Part shown: in pieces, positions 1,607-21,195 of the stretch
Layout: the number at the start of each line of letters is the position of its first letter
How positions within the stretch are numbered: the first letter of the stretch is position 1
IMG/VR virus record: IMGVR_UViG_3300024496_000106
Coordinates: 1 to 24,645 of that record
Source of the DNA: a virus
DNA length: 24,645 nucleotides
Strand: one strand, 5' to 3'
Made by a program: the position numbers and the translations under genes
The notes under the pieces: model-generated
What the model was told of the DNA's origin: nothing
Seen by the model: only the letters and a program-made list of their open reading frames with translations
The model's database searches: none

Positions 1607-1609
1607 GAG

Positions 1610-1617
1610 ACTAAATA
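1610..1617 (+). promoter_or_regulatory. Possible weak T4-type late promoter before gp19
   Basis: ACTAAATA matches the T4 late -10 element TATAAATA at 6 of 8 positions and lies in the short 18-19 gap, about 24 nt before the gp19 start. A transcript would begin near 1623 and keep the AAAGGAG ribosome site. AT-rich intergenic sequence gives such matches by chance, so this is tentative. Confidence 0.3.
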
Positions 1618-1640
1618 AAGAAAGAACAAAGGAGAATTAA

Positions 1641-2234
1641 ATGGCAAATATCGCTGATTTTAAAGCACAAATGATTGGTGGCGGTGCACGCCCAAATCAG
1701 TTCCGTGTTGAATTAGTGTTTCCTTCTTACGTACCATTAGGTATCGTTGCTGGTCAACGTGCTCAGTTCTTATGTAAGTCTGCTCAGTTACCAGCGTCTA
1801 CTATTGAGAATATTCAAGTTCTCTATAAAGGACGTCCAGTAAATTTTGCAGGCGAGCGTAATTTTGCACCTTGGACTGTTTCAATTTACAACGATACTAC
1901 TTTCAATATTCGCAATGCTATGGAACAATGGCAAGCTGGTATTCAAAGTTATAGTAACACTGACGGAAGAACTAACCCACGTGATTACCAAGTAGATTTA
2001 CAAGTTCATCAATTAGATCGTGGTGGTGCAATTATCAAGAGCTATAAGTTCGTTGATGCGTTCCCAACACTAATTGGTCCAATCGCATTAGACTACGATC
2101 AGCAAAATCAGATCGAACAGTTTGATGTAGAGTTTCAATTTAACTACTTTACTTCTAATGCAACTGAGGGTGGTGGTATCAATCTTAATGTTTCTGTTGA
2201 TACACCAATCGGTAGTTTCCCACTACCAATTTAA
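1641..2234 (+). CDS. 19: Tail tube protein gp19
   Basis: This encodes the subunit of the inner tail tube, through which DNA passes. The 197-residue product has the gp19 pattern: an N-terminal segment ending in RPNQFRVELVFPSYV, the CKSAQLPAST loop, YKGRPVNFAGERNF at about residues 62-75, and an acidic C-terminal half with the EQFDVEFQFNYF strand. It is longer than T4 gp19 (163 residues), mainly through a Gly/Ser/Pro-rich tail after that strand. A clear AAAGGAG ribosome site sits 8-9 nt upstream of the ATG. It lies 34 nt after the sheath gene and just before the portal gene, the order seen in T4-like phages. Confidence 0.93.
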   Translation: MANIADFKAQMIGGGARPNQFRVELVFPSYVPLGIVAGQRAQFLCKSAQLPASTIENIQVLYKGRPVNFAGERNFAPWTVSIYNDTTFNIRNAMEQWQAGIQSYSNTDGRTNPRDYQVDLQVHQLDRGGAIIKSYKFVDAFPTLIGPIALDYDQQNQIEQFDVEFQFNYFTSNATEGGGINLNVSVDTPIGSFPLPI

Positions 2235-2257
2235 TTATATAATTAGGGTTTTTAATT

Positions 2258-3826
2258 ATGCAAATTTTTGGATTTGAGATAAAACGCAAGCAGCCAGAAA
2301 AAGAGATCGGAACAGTAGTAACTCCGATCTCTGACGATGGCTCTACAGTCGTATCTACTTCTGCGACAGGCTATTATGGCATGGTCATGGATATGGATAC
2401 GATCGTTAAGAATGAGAACGATCTTATTCGTCGTTATAGAGAAACTTCTCTTTATGCTGATTGTGATGCTGCGATTGAAGACATTGTAAACGAAGCAATT
2501 ATTGCTGAACCAGATGATCAAGCTGTAAAGATTAACTTGGATAAAGTTAAATTATCTGAGTCAATTAAGGGTAAAATTAGAACAGAGTTTGATGAAGTTC
2601 TTCGTTTATTAAATTTTGATGATAAAGGTCATGATATATTTCGTCAGTGGTATATTGATGGAAGAGTTTATTATAATATTTTAATAGATCCTAATCAACC
2701 AAAATTAGGTATTCAAGAATTGCGTTATGTGGATCCTCGCAAGATTCGCAAAATTAAAAAAGTTGAAAAGAAAAGAACACCACAGGGTGTTGATGTTGTA
2801 GTTAAAAATGAAGAGTTTTACCTGTATAATGATAAAGGTATTCAAGAGAATACTACACAGGGAATCAAACTCTCGCTAGATTCAATTATCTATACTCCTT
2901 CTGGAGTAGTAGATCAAAATACTGGTATGATGATGTCTTATTTGCATAAAGCAATTAAGCCAACAAACCAGTTAAAGATGATTGAAGATGCGGTAGTTAT
3001 TTACCGCATTTCACGTGCTCCAGAAAGACGTGTGTTTTATGTTGACGTTGGTAACCTGCCAAAATTAAAAGCAGAACAATACGTCAATGACATTATGAAC
3101 AAGTTTAGAAATAAAATTGTTTATGATGCAACAACTGGAGAGACTCGTGACGATCGTCGTCATTTAAGTATGATGGAAGACTTCTGGATGCCACGTCGTG
3201 AGGGTGGTAAAGGAACTGAAATTACAACTCTTCCAGGTGGACAGAATTTGGGAGATATTGCTGATATTCAATATTTCCAAACTAAATTATATCAGGCATT
3301 AAACGTGCCATTATCAAGATTGCAACCAGCTACTGGTTTCTCTCTTGGTAGAACTACTGAGATTACACGTGATGAGATTAAATTTAATAAGTTTATTGCT
3401 CGTCTACGTAAAAAGTTTTCTGGATTGTTTAGTGGTGCATTACGTGTTCAATTGGTTGCTAAGGGTGTTATTCGTGAGGAAGAATGGGCTACTATTGAAC
3501 AAGCAATACAATATGATTATCAACAAGATAATCATTTCACTGAATTAAAAGATAATGAGTTATTGTTGCAAAGATTAGCTGCTTTACAACAAGTAGAACC
3601 TTATATTGGTCGTTTCTATTCTAGCACATGGATCCGTAAGAATGTTCTTGGGCAGACTGATGAAGAAATTGAAATTATGCAGAAAGAAATGACTGAGGAC
3701 AAGATTGAACAAATGCAGTTGGCTGACGAACAAGGTAGATTAGCTGCAGTAACGCAAGTTGCACAGCAACAGCATTTAGCTGATAATGGTATGGGTGGTA
3801 ATGAAGTATCACCTGACCAACAATAA
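2258..3826 (+). CDS. 20: Portal vertex protein gp20
   Basis: This is the dodecameric portal at the head-tail vertex; it initiates prohead assembly and docks the terminase. The 522-residue length is almost identical to T4 gp20 (524). Recognisable family segments include the N-terminal YRETSLYADCDAAIEDIVNE block (about residues 60-79), RYVDPRKIRKIKK near 156-168, the AVVIYRISRAPERRVFYVDVG block (about 245-265), the KFRNKIVYDATTGETRDDRR segment, and FWMPRREGGKGTEITTLPGG. The C-terminus is Gln-rich and acidic. The ribosome site is weak (AGGG about 9 nt before ATG). The gene sits between the tail tube and the prohead core genes, where T4 has it. Confidence 0.95.
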   Translation: MQIFGFEIKRKQPEKEIGTVVTPISDDGSTVVSTSATGYYGMVMDMDTIVKNENDLIRRYRETSLYADCDAAIEDIVNEAIIAEPDDQAVKINLDKVKLSESIKGKIRTEFDEVLRLLNFDDKGHDIFRQWYIDGRVYYNILIDPNQPKLGIQELRYVDPRKIRKIKKVEKKRTPQGVDVVVKNEEFYLYNDKGIQENTTQGIKLSLDSIIYTPSGVVDQNTGMMMSYLHKAIKPTNQLKMIEDAVVIYRISRAPERRVFYVDVGNLPKLKAEQYVNDIMNKFRNKIVYDATTGETRDDRRHLSMMEDFWMPRREGGKGTEITTLPGGQNLGDIADIQYFQTKLYQALNVPLSRLQPATGFSLGRTTEITRDEIKFNKFIARLRKKFSGLFSGALRVQLVAKGVIREEEWATIEQAIQYDYQQDNHFTELKDNELLLQRLAALQQVEPYIGRFYSSTWIRKNVLGQTDEEIEIMQKEMTEDKIEQMQLADEQGRLAAVTQVAQQQHLADNGMGGNEVSPDQQ

Positions 3827-3841
3827 AGAAGGAGATATAGT

Positions 3842-4267
3842 ATGAGTGATAATGTAAAAAATTTAATTTCTGCAATCGCTGCTGGTGATGCAGTAGAAAC
3901 AGAGAATGCATTTAATGCAACTATGGCAGAAAAAATTTCAGCCAAATTGGATGATATGCGCATTACTGTTGCACAAGGTATGTTTAAAACTGCAGTTGAA
4001 ACTGAAGAAACACCTGCAGCTGAAATTACCGATGAAACTCCTGCGCCTGTTGTTGAAGAAGAATTTGATCTAACTGAAGAACAAATTGACGCAATGACTG
4101 AAAAGCAGTTAGATGAGATTCTTACAAAGAAAACACCAGCAAGTAAAGTAATTAGTGACTTCGTTCATAGCGATGATCCTAAATTTGCTGGAGATACAAA
4201 GAAACAAAGAATTAAAAGAGCACTCGGTGCATATTATGGTATGCACCCAGAGAAGTCTAGAAAATAA
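3842..4267 (+). CDS. Probable prohead core protein (gp67/68-type position)
   Basis: The 141-residue product is acidic, with an N-terminal helical block (ISAIAAGDAVETENAFNATM, then AEKISAKLDDMRITVAQGMF), a Pro/Thr/Glu-rich linker at about residues 55-78, an EEQIDAMTEKQLDEILTK helix, and a basic C-terminus ending KQRIKRALGAYYGMHPEKSRK. In T4 the slot between genes 20 and 21 holds the small prohead core proteins gp67 and gp68. The N-terminal helix type (GD.....AF.A.MA.KI...LD..R) is one I associate with prohead core proteins of T4-like phages. A strong AAGGAG site precedes the ATG, and the stop overlaps the next start (TAATG). Function is inferred from position, composition and this resemblance. 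Confidence 0.55.
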   Translation: MSDNVKNLISAIAAGDAVETENAFNATMAEKISAKLDDMRITVAQGMFKTAVETEETPAAEITDETPAPVVEEEFDLTEEQIDAMTEKQLDEILTKKTPASKVISDFVHSDDPKFAGDTKKQRIKRALGAYYGMHPEKSRK

Positions 4268-4803
4268 TGTTTTATAAAGAATTTACAAAAACTATTTCTG
4301 GTGCGGATGAAACCATTCGCTCTTATGGACATTTAATACAAAATATTAATGGGACTATTTTTGTAGATAAAGAAGAAACTAATTTTAAGAGTTTGGAAGA
4401 AGCAAGAAAATACATTAAAAATAAACACTGCTCAGAAGCGATAGAAGACGAGATTATAGAAAAACAATACGAAGAGATTTCAGAAAATCGTATCGCTAAT
4501 ATTATTAAAGAACATCACGATATTAAAGTTACAGATACTCTAATAGAATCATACCTCGAACTTGCTTCTTCTAAAATTTTTACTGTAGATCCAGTTGTTC
4601 AAGAAATTAGAAAACTTAATAAACTAGACTCCCTGATTGAGAGTAAGTTACACTACGAATTAAAAGATGGCAGTATAGTTGCGATTGATGAACAAACGCA
4701 AGAACAACTAAATAATTTATTGGCAAATCATAAAGACGTTGTTGAATATATGCGTGAAACGAAAGACAACTTCTTTAACGTAGTTAATAAGATTAAGGAA
4801 TAA
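4267..4803 (+). CDS. Unknown protein in head gene cluster, 178 aa
   Basis: I do not recognise this protein with confidence. It starts with a TAATG overlap on the preceding gene, so the two are probably translationally coupled. Residues 1-50 look like a compact alpha/beta segment (YGHLIQNINGTIFVDKEETN, then a KSLEEARKYIKN helix). Residues 55-178 are predicted largely helical and charged, rich in Glu, Lys, Asn and Ile. It has no membrane segment or cysteine motif; a single Cys is at about residue 56. The position (20-x-HERE-x-21) suggests a head assembly or core role like T4 gp68, but no motif proves it. Confidence 0.75.
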   Translation: MFYKEFTKTISGADETIRSYGHLIQNINGTIFVDKEETNFKSLEEARKYIKNKHCSEAIEDEIIEKQYEEISENRIANIIKEHHDIKVTDTLIESYLELASSKIFTVDPVVQEIRKLNKLDSLIESKLHYELKDGSIVAIDEQTQEQLNNLLANHKDVVEYMRETKDNFFNVVNKIKE

Positions 4804-4805
4804 AA

Positions 4806-5231
4806 ATGGCTGTCACAAAGACAATTATAAAAAATACCAATCAAGAGACAATCGTAAAGATTGCTGGAACAGCTGGTAATGCTACCATCGATTTACAAAC
4901 TGATTGTTTAGCATCTACTCAAGCATTAGATGGCGCAACTCAAAGAGTTGATATTTGCACTGCTATGGTAACTGGTCTTTTAGGTTCTGCTGTAACTGTA
5001 GTTCGTAACTCAGTTCCAGTATTAGCATTTGCAGGAGAGAATGCATCCTTGTTTGATTTTGAAGGGCAGGGATTTAGAGATAATACAGAAAATAGTAGCG
5101 ATATCGTTGTTGCTATCTCTGGTGCTGAAGCCCATATCTATTTGACATTACGTAAAGTTAGTGGATATGCAACTAAAGTAGAAACTGCTCAGTTTGGTTC
5201 TTATGACAACCCAGCAGTAGTAGGGAGCTAA
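4806..5231 (+). CDS. Unknown beta-rich probable virion protein, 141 aa
   Basis: The product is small, nearly uncharged for this genome and rich in Val, Ala, Thr and Gly, with alternating hydrophobic strands (TVVRNSVPVLAFAGENAS, then SDIVVAISGAEAHIYLTLRK). This looks like an all-beta structural protein rather than an enzyme or scaffold. AAGGA lies 7 nt before the ATG, 2 nt after the previous stop, and the protease gene follows 2 nt later. From its place in the head block it could be a capsid decoration or head-completion protein. I recall similar unnamed proteins in this slot in cyanophages, but assign no function. Confidence 0.75.
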   Translation: MAVTKTIIKNTNQETIVKIAGTAGNATIDLQTDCLASTQALDGATQRVDICTAMVTGLLGSAVTVVRNSVPVLAFAGENASLFDFEGQGFRDNTENSSDIVVAISGAEAHIYLTLRKVSGYATKVETAQFGSYDNPAVVGS

Positions 5232-5233
5232 CA

Positions 5234-5887
5234 ATGAAACTAATTAGAGAAGTTACAGAATCTGTAAATCTTATTACCGAAGATAAATTAGGTAAAGGTA
5301 AACAGTATTATATTGAAGGTGTTTTCCTTCAATCAGAAATTACCAATCGTAATGGTCGCTCTTATCCAGAAGCAGTTATGGATAAAGAAGTTGGTCGTTA
5401 CATGGAACAATGCGTTAAGCAAAATCGTGCATATGGCGAATTAGGTCATCCAGATACACCATCTATTAATCTAGATCGTGTATCCCATTTAATAGTTGAT
5501 CTACACAAAGAAGGCACAAATTATATTGGTAAAGCAAAGATTTTAGATACGCCAATGGGTCAAATCGCCAAAGGTCTTTTAGATGGTGGTGCAAACTTAG
5601 GAGTATCTTCAAGAGCACTTGGTTCTCTACAAATGAACAAAGAGGGTGTTCAAGTGGTTCAGGATGACTTTATGCTGTCTACTGCAGCAGACATCGTTGC
5701 TGACCCATCCGCTCCAGATGCTTTCGTACGTGGTATTATGGAAAGTAGGGAGTGGGTATTTGTTGATGGAAAGTTTGTGGAAAAGCAGATTGATGAAGTA
5801 AGAGCTATCATTAAGAAGACTTCATCTCGCAATCTAGAGGAAGCCAAACTACGTGCTTTCCAAAATTTTCTGACTAAAATCAGATAA
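5234..5887 (+). CDS. 21: Prohead core protease gp21
   Basis: This is the serine protease that sits in the prohead core and cleaves scaffold and capsid proteins during maturation. The 217-residue product matches the T4 gp21 family: YIEGVFLQSEITNRNGRSYP (residues 27-45 region), the catalytic His in YGELGHPDTP (His72), and the nucleophile Ser in NLGVSSRALGS (Ser125 or Ser126). The DFMLSTAADIVADPSAPDAF segment (145-164) is also typical. T4 gp21 is about the same length (212). It is placed directly before its main substrate gp22 and followed by gp23. Catalytic assignments are by family analogy. Confidence 0.95.
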   Translation: MKLIREVTESVNLITEDKLGKGKQYYIEGVFLQSEITNRNGRSYPEAVMDKEVGRYMEQCVKQNRAYGELGHPDTPSINLDRVSHLIVDLHKEGTNYIGKAKILDTPMGQIAKGLLDGGANLGVSSRALGSLQMNKEGVQVVQDDFMLSTAADIVADPSAPDAFVRGIMESREWVFVDGKFVEKQIDEVRAIIKKTSSRNLEEAKLRAFQNFLTKIR

Positions 5888-5897
5888 ATAATAAATA
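5883..5897 (+). promoter_or_regulatory. Candidate T4-type late promoter(s) before gp22
   Basis: Two overlapping near matches to TATAAATA occur back to back: GATAAATA (5883-5890) and AATAAATA (5890-5897), each 7 of 8. Initiation from the second would be near 5903, leaving a 27-nt leader with the AGGAG ribosome site of gp22. The first overlaps the gp21 stop codon, so part of the match is forced. Scaffold and capsid are needed in large amounts, which fits a promoter here. Confidence 0.5.
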
Positions 5898-5929
5898 ATT
5901 ACATAGAACTATCCAGTTAGGAGAAAACG

Positions 5930-6922
5930 ATGTCAATCGAACAAAAAATCGCTGAAATTCTTGCTGAGTCAAAAGCTGCTGCTCTCGAGCAACAAGTCGC
6001 TGACACTCAGGAAGAAACTATTGTAGAAGAGGACGAGACTGTTGCTGAAGAAGCAGTTAAGCCAACCACTCCTCCTGCTAATCCAGACAATGCTAAAAAC
6101 AATGTCGATCAAGAGAAAGCAGCTGAAGGTGGAACTTCTAAAACTAAGAATAAAGCCAATGAAGACGAAGAAGCAGCTGAAGCCAGCCATCTTCCAATCA
6201 AAGGTGTAAAAGAAGATATTGATGCTCTTATGAATGGTGAAGAACTCTCTGAAGAGTTCCGTGCTAAAGCAACTACCATTTATGAAGCAGCTGTTACTAC
6301 TCGTGTAAAAGCAGAAGTAGCACGTATCGAAGAAGAATACGCAGCACGTCTTGAAGAAGAAGCTGCAAAGATTGCAGAGGGTCTTGTTGAAAAGGTTGAT
6401 GGATATCTCGACTACGTAGTTGAGCAGTGGATTGCACAGAATGAAATAGCCCTTGAGCATGGTATGAAGTCCGAAATCCTTGAAGGATTTGTTGCTGGAC
6501 TTAAAGGTCTTTTCGAAGAACACTATATCGATATTCCAGAAGAGAAGTTCGATGTATTAGGTTCAATGGAAAGTAAAGTTGAAGAACTCGAAGCAAAGTT
6601 AAACGAGCAAGTTGCTGCTAATGTCGAATTGAATAAAACAATCGGCGAACTAAAACGTAACGAAATCGTTGAAACTGCATGCGAGGGTTTAACTGATACT
6701 GAAGTAGAAAAACTAAAAGGTTTAGCAGAAGAACTTTCTTATGAAGACGCTGACACTTTTAAATCAAAAGTTCAGACAATTCGTGAGAATTACTTTACTA
6801 CCAAGCAACAAGCGGAAGTAACATCCGTGGTAACTGACGAGCCAGTAGAAACTTTAACTGAGGAAAAGAAAATTGACCCAGTAATGGCAAAGTATCTATC
6901 TGCTCTCAACCGTAAGTCTTAA
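5930..6922 (+). CDS. 22: Prohead core scaffold protein gp22
   Basis: This is the main internal scaffold of the prohead, degraded by gp21 before packaging. The 330-residue product (T4: 269) is strongly acidic. It has a disordered Glu/Thr/Pro/Asn-rich N-terminal third (residues 20-85), then long helices with coiled-coil character (125-245), and the C-terminal EEKKIDPVMAKYLSALNRKS, typical of gp22 in this phage group. Candidate gp21 cleavage sites of the hydrophobic-x-Glu/Ala-or-Gly type are IYE/A (after 119), IAE/G (after 150) and ILE/G (after 185). AGGAG precedes the ATG by about 8 nt. The extra length is mostly in the disordered N-terminal part. Confidence 0.93.
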   Translation: MSIEQKIAEILAESKAAALEQQVADTQEETIVEEDETVAEEAVKPTTPPANPDNAKNNVDQEKAAEGGTSKTKNKANEDEEAAEASHLPIKGVKEDIDALMNGEELSEEFRAKATTIYEAAVTTRVKAEVARIEEEYAARLEEEAAKIAEGLVEKVDGYLDYVVEQWIAQNEIALEHGMKSEILEGFVAGLKGLFEEHYIDIPEEKFDVLGSMESKVEELEAKLNEQVAANVELNKTIGELKRNEIVETACEGLTDTEVEKLKGLAEELSYEDADTFKSKVQTIRENYFTTKQQAEVTSVVTDEPVETLTEEKKIDPVMAKYLSALNRKS

Positions 6923-6944
6923 TTTTTTCAAAAGGAAAACTTAA

Positions 6945-8210
6945 ATGAATCGTCAAGAATTATTAAAAAAATGGGCACCAGTTCTAGAAGCTGAGAATGC
7001 TCCAAAGATTGCAGACAGCTATCGTAAAGAAGTTACTGCAGTTCTATTAGAAAACCAAGAGCGTGAGATGGCTAAAGAGCAACAAGCTCTTTTCGAAGCA
7101 GCTCCAGCTAACGCAGGTGGTGCAGGTATCGCTTTAGGTGGTGCTGGTACTAATGCACAAATGGCTGGTTACGATCCAGTATTGATCGCTCTAGTTCGTC
7201 GTGCTGCTCCACAGCTTATCGCTTATGATATCGCTGGTGTTCAGCCAATGACTCAACCAACTGGCTTGATCTTCGCAATGAAGTCACGCTATACTTCTCA
7301 GAGTGGTACTGAGGCTCTATTCAACGAAGCAGATACTGACTTCGCTGGTACTGGCACTCACGCTGGTTCTAACCCAGTTTCTGGTGCTTATACCACTGGT
7401 ACTGGTATCACTACTGCTAACGCAGAAGATCTAGGTGGCGCAACTACTTTCAATCAGATGGCATTCTCTATCGAGAAGACAACTGTAACTGCACAAACTC
7501 GTGCTTTGAAAGCAGAATACACTGTTGAACTTGCACAAGACTTGAAAGCAGTTCATGGTCTTGATGCTGAAGGCGAATTGAGCAACATTCTTTCTTCAGA
7601 AATCCAAGCTGAAATTAACCGTGAAGTTGTACGTACTGTTTATGCTGCTGCTAAAACTGGCGCAGAAGTTAACACTGCAACTGCTGGTACTTTCGACATG
7701 GACGTTGACTCAAATGGTCGTTGGTCTGTTGAGAAATTCAAGGGACTATTGTTCCAGATCGAGCGTGAAGCAAACGCTATTGCACAGACTACTCGTCGTG
7801 GTCGTGGTAATTTCATCATCTGCTCAAGCGATGTTGCATCTGCTTTAGCAATGGCTGGTGTTCTTGACTATGCTCCAGCATTGTCAACTGGTCTAAATGT
7901 TGATGAAGCATCTACTACTTTCGCAGGTGTTCTAAACGGTAAGTATAAAGTTTATGTTGATCCATATTCTGCTAACCAATCAGCTAGCCAGTTCTTCGTT
8001 GTTGGTTACAAAGGTACTTCAGCATTTGACGCTGGTTTATTCTACTGCCCATACGTTCCTCTACAAATGGTTCGTGCAGTTGATCCAAATACTTTCCAGC
8101 CAAAGATTGGTTTCAAGACACGTTATGGCATGGTTGCAAACCCATTCACTAGCTTGTCCTCTGGCACTAACATCTACTACCGCAAGGTAGCTGTTACTAA
8201 CTTAATGTAA
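6945..8210 (+). CDS. 23: Major capsid protein gp23
   Basis: This HK97-fold subunit builds the capsid lattice. The 421-residue product is shorter than T4 gp23 (521), as expected for marine-type relatives. The N-terminal 51 residues are Glu/Lys/Gln-rich and end in ALFEAAP; LFE/A fits the gp21 cleavage consensus (T4 cleaves after Glu65), so the mature chain would start at Ala52. Strongly conserved gp23 segments follow: DPVLIALVRRAAPQLIAYDI, GVQPMTQPTGLIFAMKSRY, the RALKAEYTVELAQDLKAVHG block, RRGRGNFIICSSDVA and the C-terminal FKTRYGMVANPF. Codon use is heavily biased to GCT/GTT/CGT, as expected for a very highly expressed protein. No vertex gene 24 follows in this window. Confidence 0.97.
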   Translation: MNRQELLKKWAPVLEAENAPKIADSYRKEVTAVLLENQEREMAKEQQALFEAAPANAGGAGIALGGAGTNAQMAGYDPVLIALVRRAAPQLIAYDIAGVQPMTQPTGLIFAMKSRYTSQSGTEALFNEADTDFAGTGTHAGSNPVSGAYTTGTGITTANAEDLGGATTFNQMAFSIEKTTVTAQTRALKAEYTVELAQDLKAVHGLDAEGELSNILSSEIQAEINREVVRTVYAAAKTGAEVNTATAGTFDMDVDSNGRWSVEKFKGLLFQIEREANAIAQTTRRGRGNFIICSSDVASALAMAGVLDYAPALSTGLNVDEASTTFAGVLNGKYKVYVDPYSANQSASQFFVVGYKGTSAFDAGLFYCPYVPLQMVRAVDPNTFQPKIGFKTRYGMVANPFTSLSSGTNIYYRKVAVTNLM

Positions 8211-8290: not shown

Positions 8291-8512
8291 ATGGAAGAAC
8301 ATAAAGTAAAAATTATAGTTTTATCCGATCTCCTTGATACTCGTGCGAGGAAGGAGAAAGAATTACGTTACTATGAAGAGCAATTAGAAATTCTTAATGA
8401 AAAAATGTATTGGATTAGAAGAGAAATAGATTTAACCAATAACATTATAAACATGATTGAGCACGAAAAACTTCTTGACCTACGAGAGCATTTAAAACAA
8501 AAAGATGAATAA
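8291..8512 (+). CDS. Small coiled-coil protein, 73 aa
   Basis: The product is highly charged and almost wholly helical: residues 14-50 have heptad-like hydrophobic spacing (LLDTRARKEKELRYYEEQLE onward), so a coiled coil is likely. I do not know its function, but short proteins of this type (KIxVLxDLLDTRxRKEKELxYY) are familiar from the same place after gp23 in cyanophage-like T4 relatives. The ATG starts at the predicted +1 of the late promoter, and I see no Shine-Dalgarno sequence. The stop codon overlaps the next gene's start by 8 nt, suggesting coupling to the tail protein downstream. Confidence 0.75.
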   Translation: MEEHKVKIIVLSDLLDTRARKEKELRYYEEQLEILNEKMYWIRREIDLTNNIINMIEHEKLLDLREHLKQKDE

Positions 8513-9041
8513 TAATACTATTTCTTGTCCTATTCCTAGTAACATATCTCCATTATCGCCTAATGGTTTTATGTTTACTATAAACAAATTACCAGAAATA
8601 AATTTTTTCTGTCAGCAAGTTAATCTTCCAGGAATAACACTTGGTGCACCTGAATTCGGTAACCCATTTAATGTGGCACCAATTCCTGGTGAAACATTAA
8701 CATATGACACATTAGATGTTCAGTTTTTAGTAGACGAGAATATGCAAAATTATAGATCCATCTATAATTGGATAGTCGCTTTAGGTTTCCCAGAAAATTA
8801 TTCGCAATATTTAACTTTCGTAAATGCTGCAGATTTGCAAAGAACATCAGAACTTGCAAAAAATTATTCTGACGCAAGTCTTGTTGTTTTAGGTTCCAAC
8901 AACAATCCAATCCAAACAATACAATTTCACGACGCATTTCCTATATCAATAACCTCATTAACATTCCAATCAACGAATCAAGATGTAAACTACCTAGTGG
9001 GTAGTGCAACATTCCGCTACGGATATTACAAGTTTATTTGA
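8505..9041 (+). CDS. 3: gp3-like tail completion / tail tube terminator protein
   Basis: The 178-residue product is a virion protein of the T4 tail-tube-like group. Recognisable features are FMFTINKLPEINFFCQQVNL followed by PGITLG, IPGETLTYDTLDVQFLVDEN (about residues 61-80) and the NYRSIYNWIVALGFPENY block (about 83-100), then a beta-rich C-terminus that includes PIQTIQFHDAFPISITSLTF. T4 gp3 (176 residues) caps the tail tube and stabilises the sheath; length, and my memory of gp3 being placed after gp23 in marine T4-like genomes, favour gp3. A second tube-like or baseplate protein is the alternative. It is served by the late promoter at 8278, and its last codons overlap the -35 box of the uvsY promoter. 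Confidence 0.6.
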   Translation: MNNNTISCPIPSNISPLSPNGFMFTINKLPEINFFCQQVNLPGITLGAPEFGNPFNVAPIPGETLTYDTLDVQFLVDENMQNYRSIYNWIVALGFPENYSQYLTFVNAADLQRTSELAKNYSDASLVVLGSNNNPIQTIQFHDAFPISITSLTFQSTNQDVNYLVGSATFRYGYYKFI

Positions 9042-11637: not shown

Positions 11638-12180
11638 GTGGCAAACTACATAAACAACGCTGACTTCTTAGCAGCAATCAAAGAATATAAGAAAAGTGTA
11701 AAAGAAGCAGAGGAACAGGGTTTACCCAAACCAATTATCCCAAATTATCTTGGTGAGTGCATTCTAAAAATTGCAACGCACCTTTCTTATAAACCAAACT
11801 TCATCAATTATACTTACAAAGATGATATGATTCTCGATGGTATCGAGAACTGTATTAATTACTTTGATAATTTTGACCCAGATAAGTCGAGCAATCCGTT
11901 CGCATATTTCACTCAAATTATTTACTTCGCATTCTTACGTCGCATAGGTAAGGAAAAGAAACATTCGTATATTAAAAACAAATTGATTCAAGATATGTCT
12001 TTCGATGCATTTGAATTACAAGAGCAAGATGAAGATGGACATTTTCAAAATGCATATCTTGAATTTATGCAACAGCATGGAACTTTTGATGATTCTTTCA
12101 TTGAAAAGAAAAAAGCAAAAAGTAAAAAGAAAAAACAAACCCTTGATGATTTTATAGGCGATGGAGATGAGCAGCAGTAG
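11638..12180 (+). CDS. 55: Late-transcription sigma factor gp55
   Basis: gp55 is the small sigma-like factor that directs host RNA polymerase to TATAAATA late promoters. The 180-residue product (T4: 185) contains the sigma region-2-like helices: KDDMILDGIENCINYFDNFD (about 61-80), PFAYFTQIIYFAFLRRIGKE (87-106) and KKHSYIKNK. The C-terminus is a Lys-rich linker (156-166) followed by QTLDDFIG (167-174), which fits a sliding-clamp-binding peptide; T4 gp55 is known to bind gp45 through its C-terminus. The start is GTG at 11638, with AGGAG 9 nt upstream; no ATG gives this N-terminus. It is expressed from its own promoter and overlaps the next gene. Confidence 0.93.
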   Translation: MANYINNADFLAAIKEYKKSVKEAEEQGLPKPIIPNYLGECILKIATHLSYKPNFINYTYKDDMILDGIENCINYFDNFDPDKSSNPFAYFTQIIYFAFLRRIGKEKKHSYIKNKLIQDMSFDAFELQEQDEDGHFQNAYLEFMQQHGTFDDSFIEKKKAKSKKKKQTLDDFIGDGDEQQ

Positions 12181-13339
12181 TCTGAGTAGGTACATTAGAA
12201 GTTTAGCATCTTCACATTCAGTTGAAGATGTAATTAGAAGAATTCGTTCTAAAAGATATTCTAGAACATATAATGCAAGAAAGAAAGAAAAATTTTTAAG
12301 AGGGCATGTTTGGGATGCCTATGATAACATGTTTAATTTGAATACAATTATGAATAATGATAACAAAATTTTTTTGGGAGTTTCAGATGTTGATGATCTA
12401 ATTACATCTGAGATTTTCAAGCGTCGTTCAGATGCTAACATAAGCACTGTATTGCGTCGCACATCCGTTTTGTGCAATCGTGAAAAGTGGCAAGAGTGGG
12501 CTGAACTGGCATACAGTGATTGTTTGTTTGTTCAATCTTCAACATCATCTGGTTTTATTGTTGAACACAACACAAACAATTTTATAAAGTTTGATGTGAA
12601 TAATAACACTACTGATGTTCGTGCTTATGGTGATGTTGAATTCGCTAATAATGTTATTGAAGTTATAGAGAGCACTTTTGATCAAATAACTTGTCATATT
12701 GAGTGGGTATATAGTGGCGATGGTCAATCTGTTAATGTTCCTCTTAACAGAGATCGTCTACCAATTAAAGAAATGTATCCATTCCTCGGTGATGAATCTC
12801 TGGAAGATTATTATGATCGTTATATGGATTCATCAGCAAATATTCTTTTGTTGATCGGTCCACCTGGAACTGGTAAGACTACTTTTATTCGTGGTCTACT
12901 TTCACATACAAATTCTTCAGCCATCGTATCTTACGATTCTAACATTTTAGATAAAGATGGTTTCTTTGCACATTTCATTGAATCTGATGAGAGCGTAATG
13001 GTTCTCGAAGACAGTGATGCGTTTCTCAAATCACGTAATGATGGTAATACAATGATGCATCGTTTCCTTAACGTAGGTGATGGTCTTGTTACCACTAAAG
13101 GTAAGAAAATGATTTTTTCAACTAACTTACCAAGTATTCGTGATATTGACTCTGCGCTAGTTCGTCCTGGACGTTGCTTTGACATCCTGACATTTAACCA
13201 ATTGACACAGGAACAAGCGGAGAAACTGGCGATTAAATTAAATGTTAAATTGGATGGCGTGAAAGACTCTTGGTCTATCGCTGAGGTTTTTCATAAACAA
13301 GATAATAAACCAGTTTCAAGAAAGGTTGGATTCCTATGA
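12161..13339 (+). CDS. BCS1-like AAA ATPase
   Basis: The 392-residue protein has a C-terminal AAA+ domain with Walker A GPPGTGKT (233-240), a BCS1-type Walker B VLEDSDAFL (281-289; Glu-Asp-x-Asp instead of Asp-Glu), sensor 1 FSTNL (about 319-323), and arginine-finger motif SALVRPGR (331-338). Residues 1-200 form an N-terminal domain of unknown function without a membrane segment, unlike mitochondrial BCS1. The start overlaps gp55 by 20 nt; ATG at 12161 or 12167 are both possible. The stop overlaps the next small gene (ATGA). Such ATPases occur in cyanophage-type T4-like genomes near gp55. It probably remodels a protein complex; the substrate is unknown. Confidence 0.85.
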   Translation: MEMSSSSLSRYIRSLASSHSVEDVIRRIRSKRYSRTYNARKKEKFLRGHVWDAYDNMFNLNTIMNNDNKIFLGVSDVDDLITSEIFKRRSDANISTVLRRTSVLCNREKWQEWAELAYSDCLFVQSSTSSGFIVEHNTNNFIKFDVNNNTTDVRAYGDVEFANNVIEVIESTFDQITCHIEWVYSGDGQSVNVPLNRDRLPIKEMYPFLGDESLEDYYDRYMDSSANILLLIGPPGTGKTTFIRGLLSHTNSSAIVSYDSNILDKDGFFAHFIESDESVMVLEDSDAFLKSRNDGNTMMHRFLNVGDGLVTTKGKKMIFSTNLPSIRDIDSALVRPGRCFDILTFNQLTQEQAEKLAIKLNVKLDGVKDSWSIAEVFHKQDNKPVSRKVGFL

Positions 13340-16647: not shown

Positions 16648-16806
16648 ATGTGGACTGATTTTACCGATTTTGAACTTGTAGTACTGGCTGGTAAATATGG
16701 TGTATCCGATGAGTTAGTTTTCAGCGACGATCTTCGTTTGGTGAATCGCAAAGAAATTGAAAACCTACTTACTCTTGTTGAATTTGAATTTGCTTATGGA
16801 GAATAA
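16648..16806 (+). CDS. Small acidic protein, 52 aa
   Basis: An ATG at 16648, with TTGGAG 7 nt upstream and a sigma-70 promoter just before it, opens a 52-residue frame ending TAA at 16804-16806, 3 nt before the VWA gene. The product is acidic and probably helical (begins MWTDFTDFELVVLAGKYGVS, ends TLVEFEFAYGE). It is the first gene of the VWA/CobS-like block. I do not recognise it; placement suggests a partner or regulator of the large protein downstream, which is inference. Confidence 0.75.
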   Translation: MWTDFTDFELVVLAGKYGVSDELVFSDDLRLVNRKEIENLLTLVEFEFAYGE

Positions 16807-16809
16807 ATA

Positions 16810-19023
16810 ATGGAAATGCGTGCATCGGATCTTTCTGCTCGACTTCTTGCAACTGAAAATCTATCAGTTGTCCGTGCAAGAACTCGCACTGCATCTTTCG
16901 ATATCAAGAGTCGTGTGTTGACTCTACCGATGTGGAAAGAAATGACCCCTGATATTGAAGATATGCTTATCGGTCACGAAGTTGGTCATGCTCTTTATAC
17001 AACCGAAGAGTATATGACTCCTATCGAACAAAACCCCAAACTTAAAGGTTACCTAAACATTCTCGAGGATGTTCGCATCGAGAAACTAATCAAACGCAAG
17101 TATCCTGGTCTACGTAAACGTATGAGTGATGGATACAAGCAACTCAATGAACGTGACTTCTTTGGTGTCAGAGCATTGCAATCGCTAGATACTTTGTTGC
17201 TCATCGATCGAATCAATCTATACTTTAAAGCAGGTTATTTCTGTGGAGTGAAATTCTCTCCACAAGAGAAACTATTTGTTGAACGTGCAGAACGCACTGA
17301 AACGATTGAAGATGTTATTGCTTTGGCTAACGATGTTTACGAATACTCCAAGAAAGACGTGGAAGAACGTAAGAAACAAATGCAAATGCAATACGGAGAC
17401 GAAGAGGATTCAGAAGACGAAGATCCTATCGAATCAGATTTTGATATTGATTATGATGAGAACTTTGACGAACTAGAAGATGAAGAACTCGAAGAACTCA
17501 GATCAATGATGAAAGATCGTGCTGGTAAACAGAATGATGAAAAAGCTGAGCAAGAAGATGATTTGGAGTCAAAGACAGATCGTTATTTTGCTGATAAATT
17601 GAGTGAGTTGGCAGACAACGATACTGAATACAATTACTGGAAATTTGACACCGAATATATGGATCCAGTGTTAGTTCCATTCAAAACTGTTTTGGCAGAA
17701 ACCAAAAGTCCAGAGCAGTGGCTAATGGATGATTCTAATGATATTCAATCAAATCGTATGCGTCATTGGGATCAAAGTTCTATCGACCACGTGGAGAAAC
17801 AAAACAAGAAAGAATTTGACCAATTCAAAATTGATTCCGTGCGTGCAGTAAACTATCTTGTAAAAGAGTTCGAGATGCGTAAGAGTGCTACTCTTTACAA
17901 ACGTGCTCGAGTATCCAAAGTTGGTTCTCTCGATATGAAACAGGTTTATGCATATAAACTTAGAGATGATATTTTTAAACGTGTTATGACCATACCGCAA
18001 GGTAAAAACCATGGCATGATTATGTTGCTTGATTGGTCGGGTTCCATGTGCGATGTGTTACAGGATACATTAAAGCAAGTTATCAATCTTGCCATGTTCT
18101 GCAATCGTGCTCAAATCCCTTATCGTGTTTTGGCTTTCACAACTTCTTATAGCGAAACTTATCGTAATAAAATTACGTCTGAGGAACAATTGACCCAAAG
18201 ACGTACCTATGAACACGAGTTTAGGGAGAACAAAAAACAGAAACATCAAGATGCCAATATTATTGATGCGTCAAGTAATTTTAATCTTCTTGAATTGTTT
18301 AGCAACAAAATGACTACTAGCGAGTTTAACTCTATGGCTCGTCGCCTGTTGCACTTTAAGTTTCAGTGGAATGAAGGATATTCAACAAGTGGCACTCCAT
18401 TGAACGAAGCATTGGTGTGGTGCTATGAGAATATCGGCTCTTATATTAAAAACAATAATATTGAAAAGATGACTCTTATTACTCTTACCGATGGCGAGGG
18501 TCATAGTCTGTCGCCCAATTATCATCGTGGATTGGATGATCATCGTACTCATATCGATGGTGCTGAGTATAAGCGTATTAAACAGAAACATTTTATTCGT
18601 GATGAGCAGACTAAGAAAACATATGAGTTCTCAAGATATGGTAATCAACAAACTGAAGTTCTCTTGAGAATGATTAAGGATCGTTACAATCTTGCTTTGT
18701 TAGGTTTCCATATCTGCAACAATCATCGCAGAGATTTGAATTCTGCTATCGGTGCAAATATTCCTGGATTCAGGGGAGATACTTATTCTCTGATTGAATC
18801 TTGGAGGAAAGATTTCCGTAGTCAGGGATTTGCTTCTATCAAGAATACAGGTCGTGACGATTTGTTCTTGATCCCGCAATCTTCTACGAAAATCGTGGAG
18901 GGAGAGTTGGATGTTAACCCAGAAGCCAATGCTAAGAATATTGCAAAAACTTTCGGTAAGTACTTGAATACCAAGAAAACTAGCCGAGTATTGCTGAATA
19001 ACTTTATTGGATATGTTGCATAA
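16810..19023 (+). CDS. Metallopeptidase-like VWA-domain protein (CobT-like architecture)
   Basis: This 737-residue protein has three visible parts. The N-terminus carries a zinc-peptidase motif HEVGH (56-60), preceded by LIG and followed about 25-30 residues later by LEDVRIE (85-91), a possible third ligand as in gluzincins. The middle (about 195-260) is very acidic. The C-terminus is a von Willebrand A domain: MIDAS DWSGS (408-412), Thr in STSGTP (about 529) and TLTDGEG (Asp561). An acidic middle plus a C-terminal VWA is the CobT design, and a CobS/MoxR-type ATPase follows. Such pairs remodel or insert metal into protein complexes. Whether the peptidase site is active is unknown. The start at 16810 lies 3 nt after the 52-aa gene; a second in-frame ATG is at 16816. 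Confidence 0.85.
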   Translation: MEMRASDLSARLLATENLSVVRARTRTASFDIKSRVLTLPMWKEMTPDIEDMLIGHEVGHALYTTEEYMTPIEQNPKLKGYLNILEDVRIEKLIKRKYPGLRKRMSDGYKQLNERDFFGVRALQSLDTLLLIDRINLYFKAGYFCGVKFSPQEKLFVERAERTETIEDVIALANDVYEYSKKDVEERKKQMQMQYGDEEDSEDEDPIESDFDIDYDENFDELEDEELEELRSMMKDRAGKQNDEKAEQEDDLESKTDRYFADKLSELADNDTEYNYWKFDTEYMDPVLVPFKTVLAETKSPEQWLMDDSNDIQSNRMRHWDQSSIDHVEKQNKKEFDQFKIDSVRAVNYLVKEFEMRKSATLYKRARVSKVGSLDMKQVYAYKLRDDIFKRVMTIPQGKNHGMIMLLDWSGSMCDVLQDTLKQVINLAMFCNRAQIPYRVLAFTTSYSETYRNKITSEEQLTQRRTYEHEFRENKKQKHQDANIIDASSNFNLLELFSNKMTTSEFNSMARRLLHFKFQWNEGYSTSGTPLNEALVWCYENIGSYIKNNNIEKMTLITLTDGEGHSLSPNYHRGLDDHRTHIDGAEYKRIKQKHFIRDEQTKKTYEFSRYGNQQTEVLLRMIKDRYNLALLGFHICNNHRRDLNSAIGANIPGFRGDTYSLIESWRKDFRSQGFASIKNTGRDDLFLIPQSSTKIVEGELDVNPEANAKNIAKTFGKYLNTKKTSRVLLNNFIGYVA

Positions 19024-19043
19024 CCCTACATTTTGCAAGGGTT
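19022..19043 (+). other. First hairpin after the VWA gene
   Basis: AACCCT (19022-19027) pairs with AGGGTT (19038-19043), overlapping the stop codon. Its 3' arm can instead pair with AACCCT of the following terminator (19050-19055), so two alternative folds exist. Confidence 0.5.
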
Positions 19044-19049
19044 TCCTGG

Positions 19050-19073
19050 AACCCTCTATTTCAGAGGGTTTTT
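19050..19073 (+). terminator. Intrinsic terminator after the VWA gene
   Basis: AACCCTCT (19050-19057) pairs with AGAGGGTT (19063-19070) around a 5-nt loop, followed by a T-run to 19073. The -35 box of the next promoter begins six bases later. Confidence 0.88.
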
Positions 19074-19078
19074 GGGGC

Positions 19079-19107
19079 TTTACAATAATTCAAAAATAGG
19101 GTATAAT
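19079..19107 (+). promoter_or_regulatory. Sigma-70-type promoter for the CobS-like gene
   Basis: TTTACA (19079-19084), 17-bp spacer ending GGG, TATAAT (19102-19107), a perfect -10. The leader to the ATG at 19169 is about 55 nt, longer than for the other genes here. Confidence 0.92.
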
Positions 19108-19168
19108 TTTATTATAGAATGAAAATTCTTGGTGTGTTGTTTCAATTTTATTATGACTGGAGTGAAAG

Positions 19169-20338
19169 ATGGCAAAAATTACTGAGCAACAAAAAGCATT
19201 CTTCGAAGATAAACTCTTTGAGATGTTTCCTGATGTTAAAACTTCTGGTACTGTGACACGTAAGCAGTTGCTCGAAGTTCGTAGCAAAAACAAAATCGAC
19301 TACCATCCTCTTTGGCTGATGCAAGATGTAATCGGTCGTGGGTTGTATTCTATCAATGGTGGTAAACCTGCAGTAGCAGTTGTGGGTAATACCGTAGTTA
19401 AAACCAAACCAGAACCTGAAGAATCTTTTGTTGTGGACTATTCAAATACTAAAGCACTAATCCCTAAGAAGGACAATAACTTTGTTCCCTTTGGTAATTA
19501 CTCAGACTTGGAAGTTATCATTAAGTCAGGTATTTTCTATCCTGCATACATTAGTGGTCCAACTGGTAATGGTAAGTCAACCATGGTTGAACAAATTTGT
19601 GCCAAGTATAAGAAACCTTTGATTCGTGTTAACCTAAACATGATGACTGACGAAGAGCAACTTATTGGCTCCAAAACTTTGGAGAATGGTAACGTACAAA
19701 TTGTTGAAGGACCAGTTCTGATTGCTATGCGTACTGGTACGACTCTGTTGCTTGATGAGATCGATGCTGGCTCTGCCAATACTTTGCTGTGTTTGCAGCC
19801 GATCCTCGAGGGTAAACCTTATTACTTCAAACTCAAGAATGAGATGATTGTTCCTGCTGATGGATTCAATGTTATTGCAACAGCGAATACTAAGGGTAAG
19901 GGTTCAGACGATGGTCGTTACATCGGTACTAACATTCTGAACGAAGCATTCTTGGAGCGATTTGCTGTTACTTTTGAGCAAGAATATCCTGCTGCAAAAG
20001 TAGAAATTAAAATTATCAAGAATCTCATGGAAACTTATTCGTGTATTGACGAAGAGTTTGCAGAGACACTCGTTAAGTGGGCAGATGCAATCCGTCGCAC
20101 TTTCGAGGATGGTGGTGTGGATGAAACCATTACGACTCGTCGTATGATTCACATCGTTCGTGCGTTTGCGATTTTCAAGAATCGTCAGAAAGCAGTTGAA
20201 CTCTGTTGCAATCGTTTCGATGCTGCAACTAAAGCTGCATTTATTGACCTTTATGATAAAGTTGCAAACCCGCAACCAGAACCTGTAGTAGAGCAAGCAC
20301 CAGTTGTGCAAGAACCTACTCAGGAAGTTCCATTTTAA
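19169..20338 (+). CDS. cobS: CobS/MoxR-type AAA ATPase
   Basis: The 389-residue protein has an N-terminal domain (1-65, QQKAFFEDKLFEMFPDVKTS to VIGRGLYSI), a linker, and an AAA+ module: Walker A GPTGNGKS (130-137), Walker B LLLDEID (193-199), sensor 1 ATANT (237-241), the NEAFLERF arginine segment (258-265), and a C-terminal helical lid. The last 25 residues are a Pro/Glu/Val/Gln-rich tail. Phage genes of this type are commonly named cobS after the cobaltochelatase ATPase, but no cobN or cobalamin gene is present here. The upstream VWA protein is the expected MoxR-type partner. ATPase identity is sure; cobalt chelation is not supported. GGAG lies before the ATG. Confidence 0.88.
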   Translation: MAKITEQQKAFFEDKLFEMFPDVKTSGTVTRKQLLEVRSKNKIDYHPLWLMQDVIGRGLYSINGGKPAVAVVGNTVVKTKPEPEESFVVDYSNTKALIPKKDNNFVPFGNYSDLEVIIKSGIFYPAYISGPTGNGKSTMVEQICAKYKKPLIRVNLNMMTDEEQLIGSKTLENGNVQIVEGPVLIAMRTGTTLLLDEIDAGSANTLLCLQPILEGKPYYFKLKNEMIVPADGFNVIATANTKGKGSDDGRYIGTNILNEAFLERFAVTFEQEYPAAKVEIKIIKNLMETYSCIDEEFAETLVKWADAIRRTFEDGGVDETITTRRMIHIVRAFAIFKNRQKAVELCCNRFDAATKAAFIDLYDKVANPQPEPVVEQAPVVQEPTQEVPF

Positions 20339-20339
20339 T

Positions 20340-20368
20340 TTGACAAATAATGGGTTTTAGTGTATAAT
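20340..20368 (+). promoter_or_regulatory. Consensus sigma-70-type promoter for the paralogous N-domain gene
   Basis: TTGACA (20340-20345) and TATAAT (20363-20368) are both perfect with a 17-bp spacer. The -35 begins 2 nt after the stop of the CobS-like gene. No terminator separates them, so the next gene is probably both read through and independently transcribed. Confidence 0.93.
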
Positions 20369-20410
20369 TGTTTTTGTAGTTGATTATTAACTTTGAAAGG
20401 TGTATATATT

Positions 20411-20848
20411 ATGAAAAAGTTTGCAGATCTGTCTAAAGCACAAAAAGCATTTTGCGTGCGTATTCTGGATGTTTGTCCGCAGTATAAAACTAAGAAAGAT
20501 CTTACTTGGAAAGAGTTGCTTGCTGGTTACTTTCTTCTGAAAGAACAGCGTGGCTCTACTGGTGAGAAACTCGGTTTCCCTATGTGGCTTCAGAAAACTA
20601 ACATCGTTGGACGTGGTACTTATCAAATGCCATGGCCATCTGAGAAAGAACTTTCTGAGTATGTTGCTGCCAAGTCTGCTCCTAAAGCAGTGAAAGTGAA
20701 ACAACCTAAAGTTGTTAAGGTTAAAACCCCTAAAGCAACTGCTCCTAAGAAAACTCGTTTGGAGCAAATTGTTGATGAGTCACCTACTCACGATCAAGAT
20801 GTTGAAGATTTCAATGCAATCTTGCGTGAGAATGGTATCGAAGTTTAA
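20411..20848 (+). CDS. Free-standing copy of the CobS-like N-terminal domain, 145 aa
   Basis: Residues 6-72 align by eye with residues 4-61 of the upstream AAA ATPase: both have QKAF, a Leu/Pro-x-x-KT turn, T-x-K-x-LL, P-x-WL and (V/I)GRG-x-Y. A six- to seven-residue insertion sits in the middle. The AAA module is absent; instead there is a Lys/Pro/Val-rich basic linker (about 90-116) and an acidic helix-like end (VEDFNAILRENGIEV). The start is the ATG at 20411 behind AAAGG; a TTG 18 nt upstream is less likely. It has its own consensus promoter and terminator. It may bind the same partner as the ATPase's N-domain; that is inference. Confidence 0.85.
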   Translation: MKKFADLSKAQKAFCVRILDVCPQYKTKKDLTWKELLAGYFLLKEQRGSTGEKLGFPMWLQKTNIVGRGTYQMPWPSEKELSEYVAAKSAPKAVKVKQPKVVKVKTPKATAPKKTRLEQIVDESPTHDQDVEDFNAILRENGIEV

Positions 20849-20863
20849 TCTTCTAGTTTCCAG

Positions 20864-20904
20864 TCGGGGAAGAGGTAATGCCATCACCTCCCCCGATCTT
20901 TTTT
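20864..20904 (+). terminator. Intrinsic terminator
   Basis: TCGGGG (20864-20869) pairs with CCCCGA (20891-20896) and GAGGT (20872-20876) with ACCTC (20886-20890), with an AA bulge and 9-nt loop. TC and six T residues follow. Confidence 0.92.
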
Positions 20905-20937
20905 ATTGATGGCGATTAATTATGGAGATATTTTATA

Positions 20938-21195
20938 ATGTCTAAACAAGATCTACTTTTGAAGCATTTGAAGAACGGTAAGGTATTTACTGCCAAGCAG
21001 ATTACTGCATCTTTTGGTATTGCACATCCTGCTAGCACAATCCGTAATCTGCGTGAGCAAGGTTATTGTGTTTACGCAAATGACGCAGTTGTGAATGGCT
21101 CTAAAGTTGTTAAGTACCGTATGGGTCAACCTTCACGTCGTATGATTAGTTTGGCTGCTCGTATTTCAGGTTCCAACTTATTCACACGTGGTTAA
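20938..21195 (+). CDS. Small helix-turn-helix protein, 85 aa
   Basis: The product has a winged-helix/HTH look: LLLKHLKNGKVFTAKQITAS (5-24), then FGIAHPASTIRNLREQGYCV with the recognition-helix pattern ASTIRNLREQG (32-42), a beta wing (VYANDAVVNG..VVKYRMG) and a basic tail. This matches short phage HTH proteins (HTH_39-like) that read as small DNA-binding proteins. GGAG lies about 13 nt before the ATG. It follows a terminator, and I see no clear promoter of its own in the 33 nt between. It could regulate the adjacent sigma-70-type promoters; no operator is identified. Confidence 0.8.
   Translation: MSKQDLLLKHLKNGKVFTAKQITASFGIAHPASTIRNLREQGYCVYANDAVVNGSKVVKYRMGQPSRRMISLAARISGSNLFTRG

Follow-up and report, generated by a model that had tools for sequence, protein, structure and literature searches.

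A phage MoxR-type ATPase and its VWA partner with a metalloprotease-like head: a likely remodelling machine rather than a cobaltochelatase

Introduction

In group 2.2 jumbo phages, a MoxR ATPase was found paired with a metallopeptidase-VWA protein, and a role in virion assembly was proposed (Iyer 2021, PMC7824862). Another study reported that viral cobST genes are widespread, considered the viral “peptidase” to be a misannotated CobT and proposed a role in relation to vitamin B12 (Liu 2021, PMC8651126). T4-like cyanophages share 25 core genes, one of which is cobS (PMC3037559). In the NorQD complex, the VWA protein inserts a finger into the pore of the ATPase ring and docks on the ring through its last residues, which co-purification requires; according to the proposed mechanism, the ring twists the VWA domain relative to the N-terminal domain (PMC13036017).

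Here, we analyzed a pair of genes encoding an HExxH-VWA protein and a MoxR/CobS-type AAA+ ATPase in the IMG/VR virus record IMGVR_UViG_3300024496_000106. This whole 24.6-kb stretch, hereafter the window, comes from a T4-like phage and is probably a fragment. An initial annotation, made from the sequence, had proposed that the pair forms a MoxR/VWA remodelling or proteolysis module rather than a part of cobalamin synthesis. This idea is not new, since the pairing of a MoxR ATPase with a metallopeptidase-VWA protein is already in PMC7824862. The present analysis traces the family beyond jumbo phages, in T4-like phages (cyano-, pelagi- and others) as well as in plasmids and phage-plasmids, and ties it to CobT.

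Results

The initial annotation described a 737-aa protein with HEVGH, an acidic middle and a C-terminal VWA domain with a metal-ion-dependent adhesion site (MIDAS), located upstream of a MoxR/CobS-type ATPase, with one small gene before the pair and two after it. All five open reading frames (ORFs) were confirmed (Table 1), those of the VWA protein and the ATPase lying on one strand with 145 nt between them. The 389-aa protein has what is expected in sequence of a MoxR AAA+ ATPase, namely an AAA core, Walker A and B motifs and MoxR/CbbQ-type domains, and is above the Pfam cut-offs for AAA_5 (66.5 bits, cut-off 22; 3e-18) and CbbQ_C (25.7 bits, cut-off 20.6). It matches the PHROGs family phrog_249, annotated as “porphyrin biosynthesis” (E 6e-105). 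Among its solved relatives Midasin is the nearest and CobS comes after, with CbbQ and NorQ also found.

The whole 737-aa protein matches phrog_459, annotated as “peptidase” in PHROGs, over its full length (E 4e-184), and neither this match nor that of the ATPase to phrog_249 could plausibly arise by chance; searches of Pfam, of NCBIfam and, by sequence only, of the PDB gave no useful match for it. Modelled alone with AlphaFold2, its head consists of three strands, an HExxH helix (residues 47-63) and a helix carrying NxxEDxRIE (76-97), with a predicted local distance difference test (pLDDT) score of 92. The 25 best PDB matches of this model are HExxH zincins or relatives, whereas unrelated folds start at Z 3.6. 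They include ArdC (Z 7.4), ZMPSTE24 (7.1) and minigluzincins (about 6), as well as IrrE, BlaR1, BepA and Wss1; some of these entries we take to be zincins from general knowledge.

Conservation was assessed first in an alignment of the window protein with nine relatives sharing 28-75% identity, in which H56, E57, G59, H60, N83, E86, D87, R89 and I90 are invariant across the 10 phage proteins. In 49-50 sequences, H56, E57, H60, N83, E86, D87 and R89 are still invariant. HExxH is present in 100 of the 102 loci counted, the other two being without the N-terminus; four fail only the spacing rule used. Part of this conservation is selected, because loci were retrieved with search seeds that contained motif residues (EDxRI or HEVGHAL); relatives fetched without motif seeds, by plain tblastn, mostly carry the same motif. 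Sequence and predicted fold together support the head as a gluzincin-like, protease-like domain with an intact HExxH and a downstream Glu, in line with the peptidase-like domain that the initial annotation had seen on the VWA partner. The head is probably an active protease.

Alternatively, the HExxH metal could serve for delivery or structure, the pair being a metal-handling chaperone that inserts a cofactor or remodels its target without cutting, like NorQD. Both NorQD (PMC13036017) and CobNST (PMC8651126) insert metal, cellular CobT works without HExxH, and HExxH is lost in some mobile-element copies. However, the catalytic Glu57, which is dispensable for mere binding, is invariant along with both His residues, and we consider this explanation improbable.

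The acidic stretch of the 737-aa protein, at about residues 195-260, precedes a VWA part with a MIDAS formed by DWSGS (408-412), T529 and D561, in which D408, S410, S412, T529 and D561 are all invariant. When the VWA part is compared together with the segment before it, NorD in NorQD is the top structural match (Z 15.8 over 257 residues, 6.6 Å root-mean-square deviation), followed by the MIDAS of Midasin/Rea1 (Rea1/MDN1; Z 13-14) and by other VWA domains (about 12). CobT and other viral relatives share the pre-MIDAS segment with its GxL-type tip, and a C-terminal ending of the type ..FI..VA is common to most T4-like members.

Relatives of the VWA protein were found in 463 phage records and those of the ATPase in 838; in these annotated phages co-occurrence was compared via organism tallies and not record by record. 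A survey of co-occurrence, as proposed in the initial annotation, placed the ATPase beside the VWA gene in 103 of 115 related loci, on the same strand in 102 of the 115 and mostly just downstream. Altogether, it is very likely that the pair works as a MoxR-VWA machine. In some Listeria and Staphylococcus phages (L101 4725-6677; L099 4998-6739), an ATPase relative lies beside a DUF7192 protein, without a recognizable VWA partner. The DUF7192 protein is possibly a degenerate partner, and these phages were excluded from the analysis.

We then evaluated whether the ATPase and the VWA protein could be cobaltochelatase subunits that hijack the host CobN to raise cobalamin. CobS is, after Midasin, the nearest solved relative of the ATPase, the role was proposed in PMC8651126, which calls the cyanophage “peptidase” a misnamed CobT, and CobN-family genes occur in hosts such as Prochlorococcus, as found in a Prochlorococcus genome. 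Nevertheless, the ATPase scores 86.6 bits against a cut-off of 558.55 for the CobS equivalog model (TIGR01650), and the window VWA protein has no Pfam CobT match (PF06213/PF11775), although distant phage relatives do match. The initial annotation also relied on there being no cobN in view. In a window of 24.6 kb that is probably a fragment this absence says little, so complete relatives were searched instead, with an outcome in agreement with the claim: CobN was not found in the records of 22 phage and plasmid relatives carrying the pair (12 + 8 + 2). The same search was positive in control genomes and in the Prochlorococcus genome, and covered the window's own phage through its 24.6-kb record only; a CobN in the host of this phage is conceivable.

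The hosts also argue against this role, as the pair is found where they lack CobN or B12 synthesis. No CobN match was obtained in the E. coli control genome, and yet the pair is present in 219 of 5,426 E. coli genomes, in every case plasmid-borne, phage-plasmids included. Phage PhiR41_1, recorded on K-12 MG1655, carries the pair with HEVAH. The SAR11 clade is B12-auxotrophic (PMC9296465), and the pair is present in the SAR11 phage HTVC008M. CobN was likewise not found in a Nonlabens assembly holding a phage contig with the pair, infection of Nonlabens being assumed from the assembly. Finally, phages retain HExxH, whereas cellular CobT has lost it. Because CobN is absent from the 22 records and from E. 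coli, yet E. coli plasmids carry the pair, a cobaltochelatase role appears highly improbable, and we are confident that the phage pair is not for B12. With HExxH conserved and CobN absent from all relative records searched, the remodelling module proposed initially was upheld, and the data, through sequence and models, favor a putative remodelling protease over the published B12 reading.

The peptidase-like domain alone, in contrast, does not separate the pair from CobT as the initial annotation had implied, because viral proteins matching Pfam CobT mostly carry HExxH too (HEVAH in SSU5 and E. coli phage-plasmids, HEVGH in a Rhizobium relative, HEAGH in T5S1 and HECYH in ICP2), while the site of cellular CobT is degenerate. 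The window head matches the profile of this viral Pfam-CobT family at E 1.3e-11 (P 97%), HExxH being aligned on HExxH. In the same register, the viral family also aligns with a profile of only cellular CobT (E 2.4e-4, P 44%). Compared directly as profiles, the window head and cellular CobT show no significant similarity (E 0.012, P 3.7%), so the link between them goes through the intermediate phage family. The CobT N-terminal model, which may include viral members, is matched by SSU5 at 2e-37, and in a full-length profile comparison with CobT only the finger/MIDAS part aligned (P 67%).

Among the cellular CobT matches, 40 strong ones from Pseudomonadota and four that are more divergent have an RGxxD-like site, with no HExxH in register. 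The sole intact cellular match, with HECGH, is the weakest one (L178 4088-6283, Pseudomonadota) and lies near a primase-like gene; this HECGH-VWA copy is probably on a mobile element. Because the viral “CobT” relatives mostly keep HExxH and cellular CobT is without it, the N-terminal domain of cellular CobT looks, from its sequence, like a dead copy of the HExxH head. This suggests that Iyer 2021 and Liu 2021 viewed one type of module, a CobT homolog with an intact protease-like site. In a tree of VWA domains, cellular CobT forms one clade (99), the joining point of which is supported at only 33-43. That the mobile-element copies represent the ancestral state, an AAA+-driven VWA metalloprotease from which cellular CobT arose via loss of the zinc site, is conceivable although doubtful.

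The gene neighborhood was analyzed for clues to the target of the pair. In the window, virion genes (311-8210: tail sheath, tube, portal, gp21 head protease, scaffold and major head protein) are followed by UvsY, UvsW, gp55, gp47, gp46, the VWA/ATPase pair, a dATP/dGTP diphosphohydrolase, gp45 and gp44. Across T4-like relatives, gp46 is near the pair in 96 of 115 loci and gp45 in 81. UvsX and primase-helicase adjoin the pair in DLP6, and DNA polymerase, ligase or primase do so in phiK7B1, ICP2, SSU5, a Rhizobium relative, T5S1 and PhiR41_1. Outside viruses, genes for an AAA ATPase, DUF3150 and an HEAAH-VWA protein stand beside RecT and lambda exonuclease on the conjugative plasmid pPROV013-PER (L180 2123-6713).

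The initial annotation had named host or virion targets, but judged by its neighbors the pair is more suggestive of a link to replication and recombination. The virion part corresponds to a machine for virion assembly or maturation in which the pair remodels and trims structural proteins, as proposed for group 2.2 jumbo phages with the tail-assembly precedent of the archaeal virus ATV (PMC7824862). Yet the phage encodes its own gp21 head protease, T4-like loci and several other lineages place the pair among replication/recombination and not virion genes, and a conjugative plasmid carries the module as well; such a machine is unlikely here. The presence of gp21 and the setting weaken this version of the protease reading and seem to make a replication/recombination target likelier than virion processing. 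Our best guess, which we put forward tentatively, is a DNA-bound or replication/recombination complex of the phage or host.

The pair could also be a counter-defense or takeover protease that cuts host regulators or defense proteins, like the plasmid antirestriction protein ArdC. ArdC is the best single match of the head (Z 7.4), tied with several others, and the carriers are phages, phage-plasmids and conjugative plasmids. On the other hand, counter-defense genes are patchy, whereas cobS is core in T4-like cyanophages (PMC3037559), and no PADLOC match was obtained, PADLOC covering defense and not counter-defense. We attribute a low probability to this explanation.

Table 1. Features of the VWA/ATPase locus in the window
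Feature	Position	Strand	Evidence or remark
Small conserved ORF, 52 aa	16648..16806	+	Sequence; directly 5' of VWA gene
HExxH-VWA protein, 737 aa, phrog_459 family	16810..19023	+	
N-terminal gluzincin-like domain, residues 1-190	16810..17379	+	AlphaFold2 model, pLDDT 92; PDB neighbors almost all zincins
HEVGH, putative zinc-binding/catalytic motif, residues 56-60	16975..16989	+	H56, E57, H60 invariant in 50 diverse sequences
NILEDVRIE, residues 83-91, E86 candidate third zinc ligand	17056..17082	+	N83, E86, D87, R89 invariant; next long helix
Acidic variable linker	17380..17769	+	Alignment; low pLDDT at 196-248
Predicted finger, residues 322-400, conserved KxGxLD-type tip	17773..18009	+	Conserved before MIDAS; within NorD-aligned region including NorD finger
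VWA domain, full MIDAS and conserved C-terminus	18007..19020	+	D408xS410xS412, T529, D561
MoxR/CobS-type AAA+ ATPase, 389 aa	19169..20338	+	
Walker A GPTGNGKS	19556..19579	+	G130, G133-K136 invariant
Walker B LLLDEID	19745..19765	+	L193-E197 and D199 invariant
145-aa protein, paralog of ATPase N-terminal domain (residues 2-62)	20411..20848	+	BLASTP 31% identity, E 2e-5
85-aa winged-helix protein (HTH_39)	20938..21195	+	Pfam 7.9e-7; linked gene, role in module uncertain

Among the small genes, the 52-aa ORF recurs, by tblastn, in 18 of the 115 related loci and in nearly all of them abuts the VWA gene on its 5' side, and the 85-aa winged-helix gene is next to the pair in 29 of 115. Relatives of the 145-aa paralog occur in 31 of 115 loci. 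This paralog is present only among the window's relatives, whose ATPase N-terminal domain is unlike that of cyanophages, and as a stand-alone protein it may be an adaptor or a competitor. Elsewhere in the window, a second tail-tube-like gene (phrog_45) lies at 8505-9041, 3' of the major head protein gene, the other copy being at 1641-2234, and a 392-aa P-loop protein (phrog_14322; 12161-13339) is encoded between gp55 and gp47. A search of the window for the late-promoter motif TATAAATA gave one match, below chance expectation and thus uninformative.

Discussion

On balance, sequence and structural models lead us to read the pair as a phage MoxR AAA+/VWA remodelling machine with a metalloprotease-like head, and not as a cobaltochelatase. 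By analogy with NorQD, the ATPase would assemble as a hexamer, with the VWA finger inserted in the pore of the ring and the VWA C-terminus docked onto it. ATP hydrolysis would then twist the VWA part against the N-terminal domain and strain a target held by the MIDAS and the head, and the head could cut, or merely grip, the loosened target.

Several points weigh against this reading. Every zincin match of the head is below Z 8 (maximum 7.4), and for this reason the fold assignment relies on the uniform list of neighbors together with the motifs. HExxH is lost in some relatives (phiK7B1, a Caballeronia plasmid), and therefore the fold can work without catalysis. The finger tip is modelled poorly, with pLDDT <50 over 370-376 and 382-397, though the pre-MIDAS segment is conserved; this low confidence makes the NorQD parallels for the phage finger and C-terminus tentative. 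As to the target, the replication/recombination neighborhood may reflect early expression alone, and a literature search on the timing of cyanophage cobS expression found no account of it. Loci in Gordonia and Tsukamurella are flanked mostly by hypothetical genes.

The question matters beyond this phage. cobS is annotated as a cobalamin gene, and if the pair is a remodelling protease, a gene that is very common in the ocean loses its B12 reading. Two conflicting published claims, a virion-assembly protease and a B12 function, could thereby be settled, and since a phage with the pair is recorded on E. coli K-12, which has no CobN, the question can be addressed in a laboratory strain. The finding also suggests an origin for the N-terminal domain of CobT. 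If the mobile-element copies were indeed ancestral, phage “cobS/cobT” would not be stolen B12 genes but kin of the stock behind the B12 motor.

Compared with known systems, NorQ-NorD resembles the phage pair in combining a MoxR ATPase with a VWA partner that has an N-terminal domain, a linker, a finger and a docking C-terminus (PMC13036017). It differs in that nitric oxide reductase depends on NorD for the insertion of iron, and the NorD accounts consulted here mention no zinc or peptidase motifs. The MoxR-type AAA modules of Midasin/Rea1 match the ATPase and its MIDAS domain matches the VWA part, but Midasin is a single giant eukaryotic protein of ribosome assembly. CobS-CobT has a homologous ATPase and the same order of N-terminal domain, acidic linker and VWA domain. 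Unlike the phage pair, it works with CobN and its CobT head is without HExxH, and the window proteins are below the thresholds of the CobS/CobT models. Minigluzincins, ArdC and the M48/M56 metallopeptidases have an HExxH helix and a downstream Glu. They are predicted fold neighbors of the head, all below Z 8, and no matched PDB entry has a description that mentions fusion to a VWA domain or partnership with an AAA+ protein. By its description, the pair of group 2.2 jumbo phages, the scope of PMC7824862, is like that of the window, a MoxR ATPase standing beside a VWA protein with an N-terminal metallopeptidase domain.

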